DNA of 64,000 nt from Geitlerinema sp. PCC 7407 (GTDB taxonomy: Bacteria > Cyanobacteriota > Cyanobacteriia > PCC-7407), in assembly GCF_000317045.1 (NCBI RefSeq), contig NC_019703.1, forward strand, positions 1,476,501-1,540,500, given 5' to 3'. The position numbers and the translations under genes were made by a program. This document shows, piece after piece, positions 37,836-39,634 of the stretch. Every line of letters starts with the position of its first letter. Position 1 is the stretch's first letter. Under the pieces are notes generated by a model. The model did no database searches and was not told the origin of the DNA. It worked only from the letters and a program-made list of their open reading frames with translations.

Positions 37836-37971
37836 GACCGGCTCTCCCGTGAAATAGCAGTGGTTCCTGGGCCGGATCGCGCGGGACGGGCGATCGCCGA
37901 AACCGGCACCCAGCCGAGGGCTGTCCTCTCAGTTATACTTTGCCAGGCTGAAAACCCTCGCCGAACGTTGC

Positions 37972-38029
37972 GTTTTCTTGACATACTCCCTGGTTTTGCG
38001 GACAACACCAGAGAGCATGTCAAGAAAAC
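37972..38029. repeat. Long imperfect inverted repeat between gabD and aroF
   Basis: Two 27-nt arms (37972-37998 and 38003-38029) separated by CGGA, with 3 mismatches. The outer ends read GTTTTCTTGACAT and ATGTCAAGAAAAC. TTGACATACTCCC resembles the ends of cyanobacterial IS605-type elements, so this may be a solo palindromic mini-element. It follows the aroF stop directly but lacks a clean T tract on the minus strand, so it is not a typical terminator. Confidence 0.6.
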
Positions 38030-38037
38030 CCTCCAGC

Positions 38038-38907
38038 CTAGACGTACTGGGGAATCGTCAGCGATGGCTGGCTAGCCGTCACCGCTGCGATGCCTCGACC
38101 CACCGCAGCCGCGACGGGACGCAGGCTGTGTACCAGGTCCACCATGTCCTCCAGGGAGAGGGCTTGGCGCGCGTCGGAAACCGATTTCTCGGGCTCCGGA
38201 TGACACTCGATCAGCAGCCCATCCGCTCCGCAGGCCACCGCACCCCGCGCCAGATCGGCCACTAGCTCCCGCTTGCCGGCTGCGTGGCTCGGATCCACCA
38301 TCACAGGCAGGTGCGTGATTTGCTTGAGGGCTACCACCGCGCCCAGGTCCAGCACATTGCGCGTGTAGGGATCGAAGCTGCGAATGCCGCGCTCACACAG
38401 GATGACCTGGGAATTGCCGTGGCTGAGGATGTACTCCGCCGCCATGACGAATTCTTCGAGGGTGGCGGCGAGGCCCCGCTTGAGGATCACGGGCTTATCC
38501 ACGGTGCCTAGCGCCTTGAGCAAATCGAAGTTCTGCATGTTGCGACTGCCGATCTGGAGCACGTCGGCGTGGGCTGCGACGGCCTCGATTTGGGCGATCG
38601 CCATCACCTCGGTCACCACCGGCACCTGGTAGCGCCGCCGAATCGTATCGAGAATTTCTAAGCCTTCTTGGCCCATCCCCTGGAACGCGTAGGGCGAGGT
38701 GCGGGGCTTGTAGACCCCTCCCCGAATGCCCTGCACCGGCGCTACTGCTAGCGCTTCGGCGACGGCTTCCATCTGGGCGAGGCTCTCTACGGCGCAGGGG
38801 CCACCAACAATCACTAGGTCGCGGCCACCGATGGTGACGGTGTCCGATAAAGCAATTTGGCTGCGGGTTTGCTGCTGCGTTTTGGCGGTCAATTTAGCGT
38901 CTTTCAT
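38038..38907 (-). CDS. aroF: 3-deoxy-7-phosphoheptulonate (DAHP) synthase
   Basis: Condenses phosphoenolpyruvate and erythrose 4-phosphate, the committed entry to the shikimate pathway. The 289-residue protein is a type I-beta enzyme (KDO8P-synthase-like): VIVGGPCAVESLAQMEA, GGVYKPRTSPYAFQG, LQIGSRNMQNFDLLKALG, KPVILKRG, ERGIRSF and VMVDPSHAAGKREL, with the metal-site Cys, His, Glu and Asp expected. The ATG at 38907 lacks a strong Shine-Dalgarno, as do both upstream leader ORFs. The roughly 470-nt 5' leader has two terminator/leader-peptide units, indicating control by aromatic amino acid supply. Confidence 0.97.
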   Translation of the reverse strand: MKDAKLTAKTQQQTRSQIALSDTVTIGGRDLVIVGGPCAVESLAQMEAVAEALAVAPVQGIRGGVYKPRTSPYAFQGMGQEGLEILDTIRRRYQVPVVTEVMAIAQIEAVAAHADVLQIGSRNMQNFDLLKALGTVDKPVILKRGLAATLEEFVMAAEYILSHGNSQVILCERGIRSFDPYTRNVLDLGAVVALKQITHLPVMVDPSHAAGKRELVADLARGAVACGADGLLIECHPEPEKSVSDARQALSLEDMVDLVHSLRPVAAAVGRGIAAVTASQPSLTIPQYV

Positions 38908-39003
38908 GGGAGTGCTTGGGAAATGAATGATTAGAGAATGTGAACGAAATCAGAGCGGGTCGAAGATTCTAGAAAGCTGGGTAATTACTGGGCAACAACT
39001 GAG

Positions 39004-39041
39004 CAACAAAAAAGCCCGAAACCGTCGTGGTCCCGGGCTTT
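39004..39041 (-). terminator. Attenuator terminator 2 in the aroF leader
   Basis: On the minus strand a 13-bp stem, AAAGCCCGGGACC (39041-39029) with GGTTTCGGGCTTT (39023-39011), two G-U pairs inside, loop ACGAC, then TTTTTT overlapping the end of the stem. It is a strong Rho-independent terminator located 97 nt upstream of the aroF ATG, with no complete gene ahead of it except leader ORF 2. It would stop transcription before aroF. Confidence 0.88.
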
Positions 39042-39059
39042 GCGTACAGCATGACCAAT

Positions 39060-39125
39060 CTACCCGGGTGAGGTCCTGGGCCAAAAATAAAAGCCATAAA
39101 ACCAGCTAGAGATAGGTTGAATCAT
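39060..39125 (-). CDS. Aromatic-rich leader peptide 2 (aroF attenuator)
   Basis: A 21-codon ORF, too short for gene finders, starting at ATG 39125 and ending at TAG 39060. Residues 8-15 read WFYGFYFW; in total 7 of 21 residues are Trp, Phe or Tyr (2 W, 3 F, 2 Y). The stop lies 18 nt ahead of terminator 2. The last codons carry CCCGGG (39068-39063), which can pair with the CCCGGG in the 5' arm of terminator 2. There is no Shine-Dalgarno, but the start context (CCCACCATG) resembles that of leader 1 (CACCACCATG). Function as an attenuation peptide is inferred from composition and placement. Confidence 0.75.
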   Translation of the reverse strand: MIQPISSWFYGFYFWPRTSPG

Positions 39126-39167
39126 GGTGGGCTACTAGAGGAGAACAGGCAGAGCGTCGAAGTGAAA

Positions 39168-39206
39168 ACCGAAAATAAAAAACCGCAGGTTTTGAGTCCT
39201 GCGGTT
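39168..39206 (-). terminator. Attenuator terminator 1 in the aroF leader
   Basis: On the minus strand a perfect 9-bp stem AACCGCAGG (39206-39198) with CCTGCGGTT (39189-39181), loop ACTCAAAA, followed by TTTTATTTTC. It lies between leader ORF 1 and leader ORF 2. Its 5' arm overlaps a 12-nt segment able to pair with the end of leader ORF 1. Confidence 0.87.
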
Positions 39207-39251
39207 CACCTAGAGTTCCATGCGCGAGCTGGATTCACTCCAAGTGAACCG
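39202..39251 (-). promoter_or_regulatory. Antiterminator pairing for attenuator 1
   Basis: On the minus strand CGGTTCACTTGG (39251-39240), inside the last codons of leader ORF 1, can pair with CTAGGTGAACCG (39213-39202): 8 Watson-Crick pairs, then two G-U and two further Watson-Crick pairs. This would remove AACCG from the terminator 1 stem. A protector hairpin, TTCAC/GTGAA (39248-39244 with 39238-39234), competes with it. Together these form the 1:2, 2:3 and 3:4 alternatives of a classic attenuator. Confidence 0.7.
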
Positions 39252-39291
39252 ACGTAAACCAATAAAAGTAAAAGCTTGAGAAACCAAACAT
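39235..39291 (-). CDS. Aromatic-rich leader peptide 1 (aroF attenuator)
   Basis: An 18-codon ORF starting at ATG 39291 and ending at TGA 39235. It begins MFGFSSFYFYWF, so 8 of 18 residues are aromatic (5 Phe, 2 Tyr, 1 Trp). It starts about 80 nt inside the predicted transcript. A ribosome finishing this ORF would cover the antiterminator's 5' strand (39251-39240); one stalled at the Phe/Tyr/Trp codons would leave it free. No Shine-Dalgarno is visible. The role is inferred from codon content and RNA structure. Confidence 0.77.
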   Translation of the reverse strand: MFGFSSFYFYWFTSVHLE

Positions 39292-39379
39292 GGTGGTGCG
39301 TTCCAGGGAATTTCTGTGATCTGGTATGAGCCGGAGCCCGAAGCGATCGGCTCGACAGAACAAGACATCGACTGCTGCG

Positions 39380-39408
39380 ACTCTAACAAAGCTAGAAAAG
39401 AGCGTCAA
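39380..39408 (-). promoter_or_regulatory. Probable sigma70-type promoter for the aroF leader
   Basis: On the minus strand -35 TTGACG (39408-39403; 5 of 6 matches), a 17-bp spacer, and -10 TAGAGT (39385-39380; 4 of 6). Transcription would begin near 39373 and include both leader ORFs before aroF. Confidence 0.65.
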
Positions 39409-39426
39409 CACCTCTTGAGGCCTAGT

Positions 39427-39466
39427 TCATCCCCAATGATGCTTCAAGAGGCGTCATTGGGGATGA
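39427..39466. repeat. 13-bp perfect inverted repeat upstream of the aroF promoter
   Basis: TCATCCCCAATGA (39427-39439) and TCATTGGGGATGA (39454-39466), 14-nt loop. It lies 18 bp upstream of the predicted aroF -35 and about 170 bp after the DUF4349 stop. No T tract follows on the minus strand, so it may be a weak terminator of DUF4349 or an operator. Confidence 0.6.
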
Positions 39467-39634
39467 GAGCTGGTCGGTAGACGCAGGCGATTTTGATGGA
39501 GTGGGACTGCTTCGAGGAACGCTGTATTGGTTGTACCAAAAGCTGCTCCGAGACCGGTGCCAATCTGGCTAGATTTTGGCTCAGTTTTGGCTAAAACTTG
39601 GCGATCGCCCTCTAAAGCCGCTGCAAATCAGGAC

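Follow-up and report, generated by a model that had tools for sequence, protein, structure and literature searches.

Two complete ribosome-mediated transcription attenuators, arranged in series on the leader of aroF, control the synthesis of a cyanobacterial DAHP synthase, a conclusion that we hold with high confidence even though no experimental proof exists yet. A wealth of comparative data on conservation, covariation, and coding constraint supports the original prediction that two such attenuators, sensing phenylalanine, tyrosine, and tryptophan, precede this gene. Because the units are conserved over much of the phylum, the alignments strongly suggest that the supply of aromatic amino acids is read by the speed of leader translation.

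Anatomy of the aroF leader

We analyzed a 64-kb stretch of DNA (the window) in which the leader and aroF lie on the minus strand. Sequence and comparison together establish the parts of the leader and their order (Table 1). The promoter, leader 1, terminator 1, leader 2, terminator 2, and aroF had been predicted to follow one another on this strand, and every element was found at its predicted position; the sequence likewise bears out the predicted codon counts of both leader open reading frames (ORFs). A scan of the entire window on both strands, requiring a short ORF with 6 or more aromatic codons among 8 and then a perfect-stem terminator, found only leaders 1 and 2.

Table 1. Elements of the aroF leader and the gene that it precedes, in window coordinates
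Feature	Position	Strand	Basis or remark
Sigma-70-type promoter TTGACG-17-TAGAGT, driving the entire leader	39408-39380	-	Sequence and conservation
Leader ORF 1, peptide MFGFSSFYFYWFTSVHLE, then stop	39291-39235	-	18 codons, 8 aromatic; dN/dS 0.38 over core codons
Leader 1 regulatory codon block, Phe-Tyr-Phe-Tyr-Trp-Phe	39256..39273	-	Sequence; end of block is the modeled switch point
Antiterminator 1, 5' arm CGGTTCACTTGGAG, the last codons of leader ORF 1	39238..39251	-	Covariation
Antiterminator 1, 3' arm	39202..39215	-	GAACCG common to the 5' arm of terminator 1
Intrinsic terminator 1, stem GAACCGCAGG-loop-CCTGCGGTTT, then T-rich tract TTTATTTT	39207-39180	-	Sequence and covariation
Leader ORF 2, peptide MIQPISSWFYGFYFWPRTSPG, then stop	39125-39060	-	21 codons, 7 aromatic; dN/dS 0.29
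Leader 2 regulatory codon block, Trp-Phe-Tyr-Gly-Phe-Tyr-Phe-Trp	39081..39104	-	Sequence and conservation
Antiterminator 2, 5' arm CCCGGGT, the last codons of leader ORF 2 plus the first stop base	39062..39068	-	Covariation
Antiterminator 2, 3' arm GCCCGGG, within the 5' arm of terminator 2	39032..39038	-	Covariation
Intrinsic terminator 2, stem then T run (TTTG)	39041-39011	-	Sequence and covariation
aroF, type I-beta DAHP synthase, 289 aa, catalytic domain only	38038..38907 (ATG 38907)	-	PF00793, TIGR01361, PRK08673

The promoter is conserved. In 87 of 93 loci the pattern TTGACN-16/18-TANNNT occurs 53 to 118 nt upstream of the leader 1 ATG, against a mean of 0.8 in shuffled sequences, and it was found neither between the units (0/89 loci) nor between unit 2 and aroF (0/89). 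Because a promoter lies upstream of unit 1 and none was detected between or after the units, both units most likely act in series on a single transcript, an inference drawn from promoter motifs. A start site downstream of position 39005, which would have refuted the original prediction, is accordingly unlikely.

Two further structures flank the region. An inverted repeat (CATCCCCAATGA / TCATTGGGGATG), interleaved with a second (CCTCTTGA / TCAAGAGG), lies directly upstream of the -35 hexamer (39405-39480, minus strand); it matches its own complement, has no further copy in the genome, and is possibly an operator or the terminator of the upstream gene. A long near-perfect hairpin (TTTTCTTGACAT...ATGTCAAGAAAA) located 3' of aroF, at 37960-38025, is likely a terminator.

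Conservation, coding constraint, and covariation

Using the aroF product, we fetched relatives from whole genomes and from a public genome collection. Almost all aroF genes at or above 64% identity were preceded by aromatic leader units, mostly by both units and in the same order. The tandem precedes orthologous aroF genes in at least 89 cyanobacterial loci from the Nostocales, the Leptolyngbyaceae, and other lineages; these 89 are the loci in which both units met our motif rule, and several further loci show both on reading. No such pair of units accompanies the paralogous DAHP synthases (~50% identity), the one in the same genome included.

The leader peptides are under clear constraint. They typically read MxxxxSYFYFWFxxVHxx (leader 1) and MTYxxSWFYGFYFWPRxSSG (leader 2), and the dN/dS ratios of their core codons (Table 1; 50 non-redundant loci for leader 1 and 57 for leader 2) indicate purifying selection, although these are pairwise estimates made without a phylogeny and serve only as a guide. 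Phe, Tyr, and Trp codons are present in both blocks in most loci, substitutions within the aromatic blocks mostly exchange these three residues for one another, and the last Trp mostly occupies one position relative to the stop codon, namely codon -8 for leader 1 (46 of 50 loci) and codon -7 for leader 2 (49 of 57). A lack of conservation of the ORFs or of their aromatic codons in relatives, which would have refuted the original prediction, is thus excluded by the comparative data, and the check that it had proposed, a search of relatives for aromatic short ORFs together with covarying paired stems, was strongly passed by both units. A Shine-Dalgarno sequence precedes aroF in 83 of 96 loci and leader 2 in 48 of 93; upstream of leader 1 it is present in 2 of 96 (e.g., window 39292-39311). 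Because it is almost never present there, translation of leader 1 in the cell is an inference that rests on coding constraint alone.

Beyond the elements of the original prediction, we found two antiterminators, each mutually exclusive with its terminator, and these are the decisive evidence for the mechanism. Antiterminator 1, a pairing of 14 bases, partly overlaps the 5' arm of terminator 1; because of this overlap, only one of the two helices can form. All four helices are robustly supported by comparison. Antiterminator 1 was paired in 88.6% of cells (50 loci), with 42 double-change cells against 16.3 in shuffled alignments (0/500), and terminator 1 in 94.4%, with 24 against 4.9 (0/500). 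The corresponding figures are 91.8% (57 loci) and 24 against 6.3 (0/500) for antiterminator 2, and 94.5% and 31 against 4.2 (0/500) for terminator 2. For none of the four helices did any of 500 shuffles reach the observed number of paired cells or covariation score. Double-change counts are inflated by the relatedness of the sequences; the slid controls, however, retain that relatedness, and sliding one partner by 1 to 3 columns reduced pairing to 11 to 62% across the four helices (29 to 53% for antiterminator 1). In divergent lineages the letters are altered and the architecture is kept: genome G056 has a new terminator 1 and a GTG start, and in G120 and G133 antiterminator 2 is shifted, CCGGGTCAGG pairing with CCTGACCCGG.

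Covariance models of both units, run on 145 cyanobacterial genomes, matched unit 1 in 51 genomes and unit 2 in 43, with one match each per genome. This aroF clade is present in 47 of the 145, and among these 47 the models detect unit 1 in 46 and unit 2 in 41. The exceptions are the altered but architecturally intact loci of G056, G120, and G133, and family f11, which has lost unit 2. Conversely, five genomes have unit 1 without an aroF match at the cut-off: three of these (G058, G108, and G127) are contig edges, and the other two are relics (the L186/L187 pair of relic loci), namely, in G115, a decayed unit 1 joined to a fragment of an aroF pseudogene and, in G121, a degenerate unit 1 without aroF. 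These two relics suggest that the leader decays once the aroF gene is lost. Apart from them, the units are confined to aroF across the 145 genomes; in the source genome, trpE has no such leader. Loci with unit 1 only (family f11: L021, L022, and L023) or with unit 2 only (L035, L080, and L084) are also known. Because a two-unit locus branches deepest on the aroF tree, with f11 next, the tandem looks ancestral and the single-unit loci would represent three later losses, to the extent that a gene tree with some weakly supported inner forks can tell.

The proposed switch and its alternatives

We propose the following sequence of events. In the absence of RNA or reporter data, it is inferred that the leaders are translated, that polymerase terminates or reads through in vivo, that each of the amino acids elicits a response, and that the two units multiply. 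RNA polymerase would transcribe leader 1 from the one promoter. When the pool of charged tRNA for Phe, Tyr, or Trp runs low, a ribosome would stop within the aromatic block, leaving the last codons of the leader ORF free to base-pair with the terminator's 5' arm, and this antiterminator would let the polymerase pass. With aromatic amino acids in good supply, the ribosome would instead reach the stop codon and cover the antiterminator arm, so that the terminator forms and transcription ends. A polymerase that has passed terminator 1 would face an equal test at unit 2 before reaching aroF. Each unit would sense all three amino acids, and the lack of any one should lift it; because aroF expression would need both units lifted, the two gates should multiply, giving an off state tighter than with either alone.

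We modeled this switch by folding the transcript with the polymerase in the terminator loop and with a ribosome that blocks the RNA to 12 bases past the start of its A site. This constraint folding, at the co-transcriptional stage and over 50 loci (unit 1) and 56 loci (unit 2), is a model and not an experiment. In it, the antiterminator survives while the ribosome sits on the aromatic codons and is abolished by a ribosome past them, at the stop codon. The mean probability of antiterminator 1 is 0.93 to 0.94 up to codon -9, 0.76 at codon -8 (the last Trp), 0.41 at -7, 0.10 at -6, and 0 at the stop; that of antiterminator 2 is ~0.65 up to codon -6, 0.42 at -5, and 0.02 at -4. In unit 1 the modeled switch coincides with the end of the aromatic block; in unit 2 it comes 2 to 3 codons past the last Trp. 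In full-equilibrium folding the complete terminators mostly win over the antiterminators, so the switch must be kinetic; such folding is only weakly informative as a test of switching, which is clear at the co-transcriptional stage alone. A 1:2 protector hairpin is not evident in unit 1, where the modeled ribosome-free transcript forms the antiterminator (mean, 0.95), and because antiterminator 1 forms without a ribosome in the model, untranslated transcripts may read through this unit. The 1:2 protector or pause hairpin is a feature of the enterobacterial trp subtype and not of every attenuator.

Several alternatives have to be weighed against two working attenuators. The one that survives best, which we nonetheless judge unlikely, is that just one unit works and that linkage has preserved the other as a decaying or constitutive terminator. 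The existence of one-unit loci of both kinds would fit this reading, as would antiterminator 2 of the window's own genome, which is short and reaches only 0.37 in the model. Coding constraint and covariation, however, are found in both units over the same loci, and both units persist with altered sequence in divergent lineages. It is also possible in principle that the short terminated RNAs or the peptides act in trans as well, like Sinorhizobium peTrpL, and that part of the conservation stems from such action; two short terminated RNAs are predicted at the aroF leader, and a trp leader peptide has been reported to act in trans (PMC7298713). We consider this very improbable, given that the cis mechanism accounts for the conserved positions and that the alignments contain no additional conserved region.

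A sensor other than charged tRNA, whether a protein or metabolite that binds the leader RNA or a nascent aromatic peptide that arrests the ribosome, would explain why the peptides are well conserved even at non-aromatic positions (VH and SSG), and with no match to an Rfam family an unknown RNA element is not formally excluded. The VH and SSG positions, however, are accounted for by the antiterminator arm that they encode, the exchange of Phe, Tyr, and Trp at aromatic positions fits codon sensing and not a specific arrest peptide, and the spacing from block to arm is, in the model, that of a stalled ribosome; we find such a sensor hardly credible. Finally, T-rich runs do yield aromatic codons elsewhere in the genome, but the idea that T-rich intergenic DNA simply produced Phe and Tyr codons beside gene-end terminators has virtually no chance of being right and is ruled out as a chance or compositional artifact by the shuffles (none in 20 block-shuffled windows under the rule of the window scan) and by the conservation, covariation, and coding constraint of the units. 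Further six-codon T-D-B runs in the genome showed no aromatic leader with terminator in the 30 of 140 places examined.

Known systems, the controlled enzyme, and implications

Ribosome-mediated attenuation is textbook knowledge for proteobacteria, but our search of open-access papers met no account of it in cyanobacteria. The aroF leader shares with the Yanofsky-type trp, phe, and his attenuators a short ORF enriched in end-product codons, an intrinsic terminator between that ORF and a biosynthetic target gene, and a mutually exclusive antiterminator just downstream of the regulatory codons. It differs from them in having two complete units in series, each mixing all three aromatic amino acids, in targeting the common first enzyme (DAHP synthase), in belonging to cyanobacteria, and in lacking both an evident 1:2 protector hairpin in unit 1 and an Rfam match. 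Judged by what sequence can test, the core criteria of classic ribosome-mediated attenuation are met, and placement in that class awaits RNA evidence.

Rfam covariance models gave no match to the leader at gathering score; the weak matches, to E = 5, were all far below gathering scores, and a T-box, a riboswitch, or another described RNA family is rejected on this ground. We found no earlier description of leader-peptide attenuation of cyanobacterial aromatic genes in the open-access literature; subscription-journal predictions may exist. The suggestion that the system was undescribed is consistent with open-access full texts and with Rfam, but it cannot be proven, since subscription papers lay outside the search. 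As far as the open literature and Rfam show, the series arrangement, the all-aromatic sensing, and the phylum are new.

Three described systems come close in one respect or another. The uORFC-13-1 motif of Acholeplasma (PMC8632094) is a predicted upstream ORF with a Phe-coding U run and an adjacent terminator, likewise upstream of aroF, but it is a single unit with at least 1 Phe coded and is restricted to Acholeplasma and environmental sequences. Salmonella mgtCBR (PMC3641672) likewise combines, within a single leader, two ORFs that each affect transcription downstream; its units, however, sense ATP and proline, are additive, and are unlike intrinsic terminators, whereas the aroF units share their amino acid signals and use two intrinsic terminators. 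The tandem riboswitches of Bacillus clausii metE, as cited in PMC3641672, are two serial sensing units, each with a site presumed to be an intrinsic terminator, in which RNA senses the signals directly and no leader peptides are involved.

The enzyme itself offers a rationale. AroF matches PF00793 (E = 5e-75), and TIGR01361 and PRK08673 above cut-off, and no PF18152 regulatory domain was found in it; a paralog elsewhere in the genome (L193:1265-2332) does have this ferredoxin-like N-terminal domain. Type I-beta enzymes that have no regulatory domain, the Pyrococcus furiosus enzyme among them, reportedly escape inhibition by aromatic amino acids; for the Thermotoga enzyme, which has the ferredoxin-like domain, inhibition by Phe and Tyr is reported (PMC6362186). 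Because AroF lacks the regulatory domain of its paralog, we infer that attenuation may stand in for the feedback inhibition, or allosteric control, of this isoenzyme. This suggests a division between isoenzymes, one under transcriptional and one under allosteric control. Some genomes that carry this aroF have no other match to it. On balance we favor, with appreciable reservation, the broader view that much of the phylum controls a feedback-insensitive DAHP synthase by two serial all-aromatic attenuators reading the same signal, a multiplicative gate that replaces a lost allosteric domain.

If true, this would be the first conserved ribosome-mediated attenuator in Cyanobacteria and therefore evidence that translation follows RNA polymerase closely in these organisms, a finding that bears on how tightly transcription and translation are coupled there. 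That the pair has been kept over a large part of the phylum raises the question of why one gate is insufficient. The logic of serial attenuators (multiplication, a sharper response, and any-of-three sensing) is testable in Nostoc and Anabaena relatives, and the one-unit loci are natural one-gate variants with which to compare dynamic range. The tandem also suggests by what means an apparently feedback-insensitive enzyme at the entry to the shikimate pathway is kept in check, which is of practical use where cyanobacteria are engineered for aromatic compounds.
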